Both the position numbers and the translations under genes were made by a program. DNA of 64,000 nt from Polychytrium aggregatum (taxonomy: Eukaryota; Chytridiomycota; Chytridiomycetes; Polychytriales), in NCBI RefSeq assembly GCF_025602895.1, contig NW_026516206.1, forward strand, positions 310,001 through 374,000, read 5' to 3'. This document shows positions 6,455 through 10,531 of this stretch, in pieces (the first letter of the stretch is position 1; each line of letters begins with the position of its first letter). Below the pieces are notes generated by a model. The model was not told the DNA's origin, ran no database searches, and saw only the letters and a program-made list of their open reading frames with translations.

Positions 6455-6668
6455 CTCTCCTCCTCCTCCTGGCTTGCTTACTCGGTGCTCCTCCTTCGGC
6501 AGCGCTCCGTTGCTGCATCTGTACTGGCACCCAGCACCGGCGCCTTGTGGAATACACTTACTGAGCTGCTGTCCTGGCTTTGGCATATCGGTCGTTCTGG
6601 CCAGCGTTTGGCTCGGCGCCATCGCTTGATACTGAGACATCGCCGAGACACTTTTACAGGCAATCCAA
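6455..6668. other. MCM4 3' flank up to the mobile element
   Basis: This short stretch carries the MCM4 3' UTR. It contains no ORF of note. The mobile element's left repeat begins directly after it. Confidence 0.5.
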
Positions 6669-6669
6669 T

Positions 6670-6682
6670 AAAAAACGGGACA
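6670..6682 (+). repeat. Left terminal inverted repeat
   Basis: AAAAAACGGGACA reads as the exact inverse of the sequence at 10293-10305. The match ends sharply: inside the element the left side continues CCCGGG, which the right side lacks. Confidence 0.65.
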
Positions 6683-6740
6683 CCCGGGATTTTGACCATT
6701 CATCGAATATTTTGTTACCCAATGTTATCGCGCGCTGGCC

Positions 6741-7596
6741 ATGACCATTCGCCACACATCCGACTTTCGCACCGCCGCATTGCGATGCTACGCCCTCATC
6801 CATAGCCTGCGTAAGGTCGCCTCCATATTCAGTGTATCCAAGAGCACCATCCATCGATGGCACCGAGGATGCAAGCTGGATGACCCATCCCGGGTCCCAG
6901 CTCGCAGATCCACTTTCTTCGAGCAGGCATGTCCAGTCATTCGCACCCTGATTGAACAGGACCCGTTCCAGACTGGTCCTGTGTTGCGATGCAAGCTCGA
7001 GTCCATCCTCCAGAGGAAAGTATCACTCTCACTCTGTCACACTGCCATCCACCGAGCAGGTCTCTCACACAAGAGGGCAACACACCTCTACAAGTCCAAG
7101 CGACTGGATGAGCGAGTGGCACAGTTCAGGGACCAGGTCCGCTCCATCGACCCACGACGATTCGTTTTTGTCGACGAGACAGGGTTCAGGAGATCCATTT
7201 TCCCTCTTTACGGATACTCACCGAAGGGTGCTCCGCTTCGCCAGCGCAATCACATGAAACACAAGTCTGTCTCGGTGGCATTTGCCATCAACCACTCTGG
7301 TGTGCTGCATCGCATGTACATCCCCACATCATTCAAGACACACTCGATGGTCGAGTTCTTTGAGCGAGCGAGCTTCCCAGACGACTCTGTGATTGTGATG
7401 GACAATGTCAGCATGCACAAGACAATGGCTGTCCTGGACTGCATCGAGCGCCGAGGATGGTCAGTGATCTTCACCCCACCTGCATCGCCCGACATTCAGG
7501 GTCGGGATGGTGACCCTGTTTGAGTCCGCCGTTCGGAGGGTGCTTCCAGATGTCTTCCCACGGCTGATTGAGCGAGCGATGCGCTTCTGGGGTTGA
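6741..7596 (+). pseudogene. Tc1/mariner-IS630-like transposase, frame lost at the C-terminus
   Basis: The open frame 6741-7523 (260 aa) has an N-terminal helix-turn-helix (residues ~10-40, KVASIFSVSKSTIHRW) and a DDE core. The first Asp is in FVFVDETGF (~residue 145) and the second in VIVMDNVSMHK (~residue 215). The frame then reaches ASPDIQ, where this family normally has SPDLNPIE with the third acidic residue, but reads into GRDGDPV and a stop at 7521-7523. A different frame stays open from 7501 to a TGA at 7594-7596 and encodes a plausible helical tail (TLFESAVRRVL...). A small indel near 7500 is one explanation; a 3' truncation is another. As it stands the third catalytic residue is absent, so the enzyme is probably inactive. 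Superfamily assignment is firm. Exact lineage (mariner, pogo or IS630-like) is not settled. Confidence 0.8.
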
Positions 7597-7847
7597 GTTC
7601 CCTCCAATCAGGCCGCCGTTTTCGCGTTCACATCCCTGGCTTGAACCTCTCGGCGATTTTTGAACAGGGTCACTTCCCCAACCAGCCCGCAAAGACGGGT
7701 TCCTGCTCTCGGGTATAAATGCCACACCTTCGTCCTGCTGCTTTCTTCCCTCATCTCGCCTTGATCTGATCATCGCGCTATTGTACGATAAAAAAAGTCT
7801 CTGCTCTGACCAGTACCACTGGCAGGCATCCAGCATCCTCTGCCCCC
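7597..7847. other. Spacer between transposase and Fanzor (Fanzor promoter region)
   Basis: No additional gene is seen here. The stretch lies inside the mobile element and includes a TATA-like box at 7715-7720, about 130 nt before the Fanzor ATG. It therefore probably contains the Fanzor promoter and 5' UTR. Confidence 0.5.
7715..7720 (+). promoter_or_regulatory. TATA-like box upstream of the Fanzor gene
   Basis: TATAAA within CGGGTATAAATGCC lies about 130 nt upstream of the Fanzor ATG. Position and GC-rich surroundings make a core promoter plausible, but no transcript evidence is available. Confidence 0.4.
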
Positions 7848-10220
7848 ATGCCTCCGAAGCGTAAGGGTACCGGTGATGGCCAGCCTCGGCCACCCAGGCC
7901 CAAGAAAGCCAAGTCACAGTCGGAGCCTGTCTCTGGTTCGTCTTCTGATCCCACGCATGCTTGGTCGTCTGTTGCTCCGTCGCTCACCACCACTGCTTCT
8001 GCAGATCCAATGGATGTCGATCCCACCGAGCCTGGTCCATCTACTTCCTCGAGTACCGGCAAGCGATGTCGCCAGTGCGATGGCACCGATCACGAACGCT
8101 GCAACACTAGCAAATGTCCCAAATACCGGCCCCTCAAGAGTTCTGTCGTCCCACTCGTGGATGGAAGGTCATCCGCCCCTCAGTTCAGCTGCTTCAAGCA
8201 GACGATGGATGGCTGTTGTCTCAATCCCGCTCTCCGCGACAAGATCCAGGCCACCGTCGAGGTCATGACCCAGATCCAGTTCGAGGCATCCAGGCTGCTC
8301 AACCTGCACATCCTCCGGTGCATCGAGCAGGATCTTCCCGTCCCCGTCATCTCCAAGTCCACCCCTGCATTCATCCGCCAATGCTTCACGATTGTCGAGG
8401 CCGATGCCCTCTCGACGGCCAGGGATACCAAGAAATACAACGAGCATCTGGTCGCTTCCTTTCGCGACTACCAGACCACTCGGCACGCAGACCTGCCTCC
8501 GGCCCCTCGTCTGCCTGATGGTGCTCACAGTCAGCTTCTCACACTGGCTGTCAATGCCTATGCCACCAACTGCACCACCCACCTCGACCTGGCATACTGG
8601 AGACTCCTTCGCCGCTTCTGTGCTGCCGTCTTCCCAGCCAACAAGCATAAGCACGAAGCCATCGAGGCCTGTCTCGAGCTCTTCGAGAAACCAGGGCAGA
8701 CTCCACCCAAGGCCGATATCGAGTTCCTCTATCCCGACTTTGGTCACATCCTGGACGAGTTTCGGTACAGCAACGACTAGGACCGCTTCCGGGCCCTCCA
8801 TCGCCTCTCACACCATGTGAGAATCCTCGCCCGAGACAAGATGGTCGACAATGTCCACAAGTGGATCGACTGTGACATGCCCGCCCTCCGAGTCACCGAG
8901 CTGCAGCGCCAGGCCAAGCTGGACGAGCTCACTACCCAAGGCATTCCCTCCGACGACAAGAGGTTCACCACGGCCAAGTCTGAGCTCGGCACCACCAAGT
9001 CCAAGATCAACAAGCTGGCATCCAGGATCAACTGGGCACTCAAGCAGCTCGCTCTGGACACTCCTCCGGCCGTGTGCACGATAGTTCCTCTGTGCACTGC
9101 CACGGCCAAGTATGTCAAGATCGACACCGTCACTCTCTGGGAACTCCTTGGTCCAAAGAAGCGCCTTGACCTCACCTGGGACATGCTCAAGGAAGAAGGT
9201 GATGACGGTGTCAACAACCAGGATCGTCTCTGGCGCAGTTGCTTCAAGCTGCGTAGTTCCCTCTTCCGTGACCGGGATATCAATCACAAACTGTTCAACT
9301 ACGAGATCAGTACCGATGGAATTGGATGCACCATCGGTCTCGTCAAGTTTCTGCCTCGAACCGATCACACCGAGACCATCGAGCCTCCTCCGACTGCCGA
9401 ACAGCGTATCCAGGCCCACATCGGCGACCCAGACCCCGATCGCACCACTTGGATTGGCATCGATCCTGGAGTCGGCTCCATCTTCACGGCGGTCATCCAA
9501 GCACCGGGCCACCAAGACGAGGTGGTCTCATTCTCCAATGGCCACTACCAGCACATGTGTGGCCATACGTCCAACACCAAGTGGCACAATGCCATGAAGT
9601 ATCGACTCAGCATCGAGACCTGGATGTCGACCACCCCCTCGCCCAAGGTGCAGTCCTCGGAGGCTTTCAAGGTCCATCTCACCCATGTCCTGCAACCGGA
9701 GCTGCGAGTGCAGCTCGACTTCCACCTTGGCAAGAAGGCCCGTCACCATCGCTTCACGGGCCACAAGAGGCGCCAAGTGGCCGTCGACAAGATGTGCAAG
9801 GCCGTCCTGAAGCACGCCCCGATACGGACCGATGTGGTGATCGCCTTTGGCAATGCGTCATGGCGACAAGGCAAGGGCTATGCATCCAGCCCTCGGAGGC
9901 AGCGGTTCGCTCGGTACTTTGAGCAATTCGAGCACCACCGACGCCGTCCCAATCACCATCATGGAAGTGTCAAGGTGGCCTCGACGAACGAGTTCAACAC
10001 CTCGCAGGTGTGCTCCAAGTGCCTGGAGCCAGTTCGGTTGGAAGGACTCGATGCGCCCAGTGTTGCGAATTCCCACTTTGTCAGGAGCTGCAAGAATCCC
10101 AGCTGCCGGACAGTGTGGAATCGCGGCGTCAATGCGGCGCGCAACATGATCATAGTGTGCAGGTCGATTGTGGAGATCGGAGAGCGACCGGTGGTCTTCA
10201 CTCGGAGGCTGCCAAAGTGA
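7848..10220 (+). CDS. Fanzor (eukaryotic TnpB-like RNA-guided nuclease), interrupted by one in-frame TAG
   Basis: One reading frame runs from ATG 7848 to TGA 10220 (~790 codons), broken only by TAG at 8778-8780. The N-terminus has basic clusters (MPPKRKG, RPKKAKS) resembling nuclear localisation signals, then a disordered Ser/Pro/Thr stretch and a Cys/His knuckle (CRQC..H...C....CP, ~70-90). The C-terminal half has a RuvC-like nuclease fold: GIDPGVGSIFTA with the RuvC-I Asp (codon 9462-9464), the NEFNTSQVCSKC block (Glu codon 9990-9992, candidate rearranged RuvC-II Glu), a CSKC...C....C zinc ribbon, and WNRGVNAARNM where the family usually has RDxNAAxN. The RuvC-III Asp is therefore Gly (codon 10125-10127). 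Known Fanzors cut DNA guided by an RNA from the element's 3' end. This copy is probably inactive. It has no introns, unlike the neighbouring genes. Confidence 0.85.
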
Positions 10221-10306
10221 TCTGTTTTATTTCTTGTGGCTTTGCTTGACGCAAGCACAGCACATACTACATGTTCATGGAAACGGCTATATTGTCCCGT
10301 TTTTTT
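10221..10306 (+). ncRNA. Candidate Fanzor guide-RNA (omega/fRNA) region at the element's right end
   Basis: In characterised TnpB and Fanzor systems the guide scaffold is transcribed from the 3' end of the ORF to the element boundary, and the guide comes from flanking DNA. Here only 86 nt separate the Fanzor stop from the right inverted repeat. The stretch is less GC-rich than the ORF. I did not identify a confident fold; the call rests on position only. If correct, the guide would start just right of about 10306. Confidence 0.25.
10293..10306 (-). repeat. Right terminal inverted repeat
   Basis: TGTCCCGTTTTTTT is the reverse complement of the left repeat at 6670-6682, with one extra T. It is followed by CTG and an AATAAA at 10310-10315. 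Confidence 0.62.
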
Positions 10307-10531
10307 CTGAATAAAGTGTAGCATTGGTTGGCGCAATGGGAAGATCGGTGTGGAGGGGTGTATCTCGGCCGCACCTGGAGGCCGGCCGATCGATGGGGGC
10401 ACCCCAACTACCGGAAGCAGACAGTCATGTCGTTGGTGTGCTTGCCATCCACAGATCGTCTGCTGTTGTCTGACTTGTCGGCAACTTCCCTGTTTGTCGT
10501 GCTTGATTTTTTTTTTTTTTCCTCTGCCAGA

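Follow-up and report, generated by a model that had tools for sequence, protein, structure and literature searches.

Several described systems pair an RNA-guided nuclease with a mobile element. In bacterial IS200/IS605 elements, the right-end guided nuclease TnpB serves to retain the element where it has inserted or to spread it, as described in part of PMC11870625. In the chytrid Spizellomyces punctatus, a conserved CA before the left repeat of the SPu-1 element, which encodes SpuFz1, belongs to the measured CATA target-adjacent motif (TAM), according to the relevant portions of PMC3627910 and PMC10432273; the corresponding portion of PMC10432273 states that what Fanzor cleavage does biologically is not known and that SPu-1 was found without a transposase. 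Here we describe a stretch of 64,000 nucleotides (the window) from contig NW_026516206.1 of Polychytrium aggregatum, which contains an element with a transposase frame and a Fanzor frame. The element belongs to a large Tc1/mariner-type family of DNA transposons in this fungus, apparently active in recent times, with a Fanzor1-like cargo. Its copies lie behind an oriented (A/T)TTA motif, which is what a Fanzor TAM would be expected to leave, by analogy with SPu-1.

An earlier note on this stretch had placed the two frames on the same strand inside a pair of 13-bp inverted repeats spanning 6669 to 10306. The frames were found as claimed, and the 13-bp repeats are real as an inner core, but the full ends are 26 bp long and imperfect (CAGGCAATCCAATAAAAAACGGGACA on the left and, as the reverse complement, CACTTTATTCAGAAAAAAACGGGACA on the right). 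The inner 13 bp of the two ends are identical and the outer 13 bp agree at 6 of 13 positions only, which is why the outer part had been overlooked; the element in fact covers 6657 to 10318, with TA at 6655-6656 and 10319-10320. Allowing at most one mismatch, the window contains two occurrences of AAAAACGGGACA, 12 bases of the core, compared to 0.14 expected. Both the TA target-site duplication and the terminal inverted repeats characteristic of Tc1/mariner elements are therefore present.

Searches of the 64.68-Mb assembly for these ends, with up to two mismatches, returned 376 left ends and 260 right ends, while the reversed-pattern controls returned none for either. The left-end count includes a sister subfamily, and because certain insertion sites are represented on both a small and a large contig, the loci are fewer than the ends. 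With the window element as query, at least 91 matching pieces were obtained (39 of 1,332 candidates were scored). Thirty copies were retrieved, same-site pairs included, and were ranked by a mostly-Fanzor segment, which favours Fanzor-bearing copies. All 30 possess both ends and, between them, both gene regions (some with deletions), at many different sites; the longest is about 3740 bp. TA was found on both sides in 27 copies, the other three having one base substituted on the right. The flanks show no relationship to one another, apart from those of same-site pairs on different contigs, those of one pair with only its right flank in common, and some brief stretches of other repeats. Collectively, these results strongly support the single mobile unit that the earlier note had proposed, and the further copies sharing its ends that the note had named as a check were found. 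We found no point in favour of the view that the transposase and the Fanzor are chance neighbours, inserted independently between unrelated repeats; the 30 copies carrying both gene regions between the same ends at many sites refute it, and we give it virtually no credence.

Intact copies, which the earlier note had made a condition of further interest in the family, do exist, as both frames are open in 12 of the 30. A Fanzor frame of at least 780 residues is present in 23 copies and a transposase frame of at least 300 residues in 15, one of which has an altered C terminus. This contrast was not used as a sign that the Fanzor is kept open more than the transposase, because the sample had been ranked by a mostly-Fanzor segment. 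When loci were instead listed by exact left end, the 310-aa transposase frame was present in 5 of the first 30, and shared deletions in many of the others. The ratio of nonsynonymous to synonymous polymorphism (pN/pS), pooled over the 30 copies, is 0.21 for the transposase and 0.31 for the Fanzor; as judged from these substitution patterns, the open frames are shown to be under purifying selection.

The flank motif was found at the left end. Of 214 exact left ends, with same-site pairs counted separately, 204 carry T directly before the TA. In 49 distinct left flanks, the base before the TA is T in 47 and A in 2, and the next base outward is A in 27, T in 14, G in 6, and C in 2, compared to a background of T before TA in 12.7% of 2,624 cases in the window sequence. 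For the right side, 93 flanks were collected, one without sequence was dropped, and duplicates were merged to give 78 distinct flanks, in which the base after the TA is C in 31, G in 21, A in 13, and T in 13. The mirror base A is thus not above the 12.7% background (p=0.19), and the left and right biases differ with a Fisher p of 5e-20. The bias is oriented, since a symmetric preference would put A after the right TA. Because the CA before the left repeat in Spizellomyces belongs to the measured CATA, (A/T)TTA is predicted to be the TAM of the Polychytrium Fanzor.

A sister subfamily combines a closely similar transposase with another Fanzor. Its type Fanzor is P0001, a Polychytrium aggregatum protein that is 100% identical at contig C268 and 53% identical to the window Fanzor over 224 aligned positions. 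Of five left ends near P0001-type Fanzors, four align with those of the main family through the TA, with CAGCC in place of CAGGC; the outermost part of the fifth is divergent. The right ends (both of the two copies fetched) read TGTCCCGTTTCTTTCTGGTTTGACTG, unlike those of the main family. In one sister copy, 301 of 310 transposase residues are identical to those of the main family and the left DNA is 96.9% identical over 1,012 columns (about 1 kb). Exact CAGCC left ends, mostly of the sister subfamily, gave 13 rows in two listings, which were merged where six flanking bases agree into 10 distinct sites; the base before the TA is T in 5, A in 2, C in 2, and G in 1. T is therefore less frequent than in the main family (5/10 vs 47/49; Fisher p=9e-4). 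These numbers, though small, suggested that the T motif mainly tracks the right-hand module, with some contribution of the transposase possible.

Short derivatives of the family pointed to the same end of the element. Thirteen short copies with both ends (279, 307-309, 380-381, and 1109-1110 bp) each retain no less than 97 bp from the left end and no less than 166 bp from the right, the latter reaching 68 bases into the Fanzor frame and so covering its stop codon. All but one were chosen because both ends were listed, and hence only the length retained beyond the ends is informative; two loci whose matches are confined to about 190-200 bp of the left side (L049 and L052) were excluded from the count. 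T precedes the TA in 12 of the 13 derivatives and C in the exception. In the Fanzor1 right-end RNAs described in part of PMC10711439, the inverted repeat and the duplication form part of the scaffold. The predicted fold of the last 98 bases of the main family plus TA pairs the TA with an upstream UA and places the inverted repeat in the stem. The sister right end is predicted to have a similar outline from a different sequence and to close on the TA at 120 nt. Rfam gave no match up to E=1 in 6500-10500. Low diversity at the 3' end of the Fanzor gene (0.008 at four-fold sites of codons 721-760 vs 0.073 for the gene) was considered as a sign of guide-RNA constraint and was not used, because diversity is comparably low in other stretches of both genes.

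We consider it probable, on comparative sequence grounds, that the transposase moves the element at TA and that the Fanzor restores it at emptied (A/T)TTA sites. The DD34E transposase would cut and paste the element at TA. The Fanzor would take up a right-end RNA, with a scaffold ending in the TA and the host flank as its guide, and would cut the matching empty site when (A/T)TTA precedes the target. Homologous repair of the cut site would then copy the element back. Insertions lacking the motif would not be restored and would be lost, leaving the motif at surviving copies, and short derivatives that keep the right end would use the Fanzor in trans. Retention at the donor site with the aid of the Fanzor, as the earlier note suggested, has thus gained indirect support from the oriented (A/T)TTA, from its weaker form beside a near-identical transposase with another Fanzor, and from the derivatives that keep the right end. 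A stronger claim, on which our judgement is almost evenly divided, takes the two subfamilies, alike in transposase but not in Fanzor or insertion-site signature, as a natural experiment in which the Fanzor and not the transposase decides, in a eukaryote, which insertions persist; the motif would then be the footprint of a donor-restoring drive, and the derivatives would exploit the Fanzor in trans.

Alternatively, the TTA bias may be an oriented target preference of a transposase with unequal ends, the Fanzor being a passenger or serving another purpose. We regard this as unlikely, but several observations speak for it. The element ends do differ in their outer 13 bp, the derivatives are biased without a Fanzor gene, and the 5 of 10 for CAGCC-type ends itself exceeds background (p=0.005), so that the transposase may add some preference. 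However, where the transposase is 97% identical and the left end almost unchanged, T is found at 5/10 sites rather than 47/49. Likewise, the target TA is palindromic, yet the mirror base of the right flank is not above background, and because the derivatives share the right end, the Fanzor acting in trans accounts for them equally well. Other points also count against the restoration model. The sister comparison comprises 10 distinct sites, which show no obvious motif of their own; when it is limited to the sites followed, at about 2.8 kb, by a P0001-type Fanzor, 7 distinct sites remain and T is found in 4 (p=0.011). Moreover, the right inverted repeat is not the same in the two subfamilies, a difference not separable from that in the Fanzor in this comparison, and the 214 main-type left ends were pooled irrespective of which Fanzor follows. 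Finally, folding of the last 100 nt is modest, with shuffle z-scores of -2.1 and -1.7; five window stretches that were folded gave -2.3, -0.8, 0.1, 2.4, and -1.6, and the 100-nt sister fold does not close on the TA.

Sequence exchange among copies bears on a further possibility, that the Fanzor has a role other than donor restoration, such as cutting other elements or promoting exchange between dispersed copies. Same-site pairs on different contigs (L013/L026, L014/L030, L018/L028, L022/L025, and L005/L006; L and C numbers are our handles for loci and contigs) have flanks mostly more than 99% identical (95.6% in the lowest stretch) around bodies that are 96.5-98.9% identical. Some same-site pairs are distinguished by shared deletions (C79:188642 vs C9:123060; C19:126131 vs C35:614613). 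In one pair of 380-bp derivatives, 318 flanking bases agree completely and the bodies differ at 8 positions; for a pair on C79 and C30, 400 flanking bases are identical and the initial 1.5 kb of the body shows 11 differences. The 391 bases compared for another derivative pair are all identical. Linkage among 193 sites within the family is gone beyond about 30 bp. As a control, 20 slices of reverse-transcriptase sequence were fetched and 8 from two other reverse-transcriptase families were dropped, leaving one family without Fanzor (12 copies, 477 bp, 25 site pairs). Its four-gamete fraction is 0.76 and its r2 is 0.12, compared to 0.82 and 0.094 for 12-copy subsamples of the Fanzor family. Since this control loses linkage similarly, the shuffling is not Fanzor-specific, and Fanzor-driven homing or gene conversion was set aside as its cause. 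The body differences are likely due to gene conversion general to repeats or to assembly mixing, either of which suffices, and we judge such another role of the Fanzor to be improbable. The control family itself has more than 100 equal-score matches (150 of 1,671 candidates scored), which form clusters on contigs including C11, C115, C173, and C366.

The assignment of the nuclease was based on published fingerprints. In the parts consulted, PMC10711439 gives a RuvC1 DPG motif and an alternative glutamate six residues before the zinc finger, and PMC3627910 gives the pattern D-X(125,275)-[TS][TS]XX-C4 zinc finger-X(5,50)-RD. The 790-aa protein shows both. The DPG motif lies at D539 in 30/30 copies; E715, six residues ahead of the zinc-finger C722, is present in 29/30 (the exception is L017); and the spacing is D539-178-TS718-719, C722, and RD759-760, with D760 in 29/30 and G in the window copy. 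The C-terminal TNB/zinc-ribbon domain PF07282 scores 33 bits in the window copy and 38 bits in a complete copy, and the RuvC and zinc-ribbon motifs noticed earlier were thus both recovered. A profile built from four sequences matches SpuFz1 (8gkh) with E=0.0023 over profile positions 6-307 of 314 and GtFz1 (9cer) with E=0.0045 over positions 18-285; its lowest E-values are for TnpB-type chains, covering positions 222-285 only. Fanzor1 traits listed in part of PMC10711439 are carriage by a eukaryotic DNA transposon, a long protein, and a TDG motif, although some Fanzor2s likewise sit in such transposons. The length, the Tc1/mariner element, a TDG motif (EISTDG, read by eye), and the profile matches to SpuFz1 and GtFz1 over most of the profile length indicate from sequence that the nuclease is most likely a Fanzor1. 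The full-length Fanzor had no match at E <=0.001 among the 7,999 protein-database candidates sharing most words, the C-terminal part alone gave 4 matches, and no relative was present among 87 pattern matches in viral contigs. In P0002 (Polychytrium aggregatum BJ171DRAFT_630730), an F-box (PF00646) is joined to a Fanzor C-terminal segment with 53% identity to the query; this is probably a gene model fused across an element.

Tc1/mariner transposases follow a DD34E/D-type spacing rule. Complete copies of the family carry D145, D221, and E256, with 34 residues separating D221 from E256, and have an N-terminal region like a helix-turn-helix (HTH) that matches HTH_23 at 18.6 bits, under the cut-off of 24.6. 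The DDE_3 domain (PF13358) scores 85.2 bits in a complete copy and 60.9 bits in the window copy. The DDE motifs reported earlier were therefore found as a domain, but the triad is incomplete in the window, where about 77 bp are deleted after 7492; this loss takes out E256, kept in the other 29 copies, and shifts the frame. The window Fanzor has an in-frame TAG at codon 311, in addition to the change of its last catalytic residue, D760, to G. An alternative genetic code was ruled out as an explanation of the TAG, because the other 29 copies read CAG there. The window copy is dead in both genes, contrary to its initial reading as intact, and each of the three defects (the E256 deletion with its frameshift, the TAG, and D760G) is unique among the 30 copies. 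The coordinates are given in Table 1.

Table 1. Features of the window element and its flanks (positions within the 64,000-nucleotide window)
Feature	Position	Strand	Remarks
Whole element, 3662 bp	6657..10318	+	Flanked by TA on both sides
TTTA, candidate TAM (family pattern (A/T)TTA)	6653..6656	+	Ends in the left TA
TA target-site duplication, left copy	6655..6656	none	
Left terminal inverted repeat, 26 bp, imperfect	6657..6682	+	
Transposase frame, truncated, 260 aa	6741..7523	+	Contains HTH-like and DDE_3 regions; complete copies have 310 aa
Deletion junction	7492..7493	+	About 77 bp gone, catalytic E256 included
TATA-like GGGTATAAAT	7711..7720	+	Upstream of the Fanzor frame; possible Fanzor promoter
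Fanzor frame, 790 codons	7848..10220	+	TAG at 8778-8780; D760G at 10125-10127
Right-end 166 bp, candidate guide-RNA scaffold	10153..10318	+	Overlaps the Fanzor 3' end; kept in 13/13 derivatives
Right terminal inverted repeat, 26 bp, imperfect	10293..10318	-	
TA target-site duplication, right copy	10319..10320	none	Predicted to pair with an upstream UA in the right-end stem
Expected guide position, host flank just after TA	10321..10335	+	Expected by analogy with Fanzor1 RNAs (PMC10432273, PMC10711439, in part)

The neighbours of the element had been named as MCM4 and PUS10. An MCM gene (PF00493) and Pus10 (PF21238) do flank it, the former being identified at the level of PF00493 only. The window copy (L001, on C334) has its right flank in common with L002 (on C23) over 1,500 bp at 99.87% identity, and their left flanks are unrelated, which suggests that sequence was rearranged, or the assembly misjoined, at the element. 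The inverted-repeat core CGGGACAC was also seen in host flanks just past the right ends of L018, L102, and L111, suggesting insertion beside the ends of related elements. At L157 (C2:38270-38510), a sister-type right end is followed, after some tens of bases, by the left end of another copy, in a nearly tandem arrangement. In a search with P0001 (138 of 980 candidates scored), at least roughly 60 matches span nearly all of the matched part, many with frames of at least 800 aa; at least roughly 75 further matches start at about residue 57, mostly with frames near 300 aa, and these are possibly a third group of short or intron-containing Fanzors.

Among the papers searched, none joined Fanzor with Polychytrium, and the only one joining Fanzor with a chytrid was PMC10432273. 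The family supplies, in a chytrid, the combination that had been missing: a DDE transposase and a Fanzor together, with hundreds of ends and open copies. With the transposase/Fanzor swap, what each protein contributes to target-site choice can be told apart from sequence alone and the retention model can be tested directly, and (A/T)TTA is a concrete TAM prediction for a divergent Fanzor.

Compared to known systems, the family shares features with each and differs from each. First, like SPu-1 with SpuFz1, it is a chytrid element with a Fanzor (here most likely a Fanzor1), a TA duplication, and conserved bases upstream of the left repeat, and its short derivatives with the right end and without Fanzor resemble the ghost loci of Spizellomyces. 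As described in parts of PMC3627910 and PMC10432273, SPu-1 has no transposase identified between its repeats, 42 full or partial Fanzor loci with 134 ghost loci, a protein of 633-638 aa, a measured CATA motif, and a right-end RNA; here, a DDE transposase is present, 376 left and 260 right ends were found, the Fanzor has 790 aa, and both the (A/T)TTA motif and a right-end RNA are predicted. Second, like the Mariner elements PGv-1 and PUl-1 of PMC3627910, it unites a transposase and a Fanzor1 (here a probable one) in one TA-flanked unit. PGv-1 is described there as single-copy; a flank motif, a selection test, and a cargo swap are not among the features given for PGv-1 and PUl-1 in the relevant part of that paper.

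Third, like the present family, IS200/IS605 elements have a motif adjoining the left end, and their nuclease-based retention resembles the one proposed here. They carry a HUH transposase and are not known to possess inverted repeats or a target duplication; in contrast, the present family has a DDE transposase in a eukaryote. A Fanzor within a mariner element is thus already known, and the scale of the family and the cargo swap are new.

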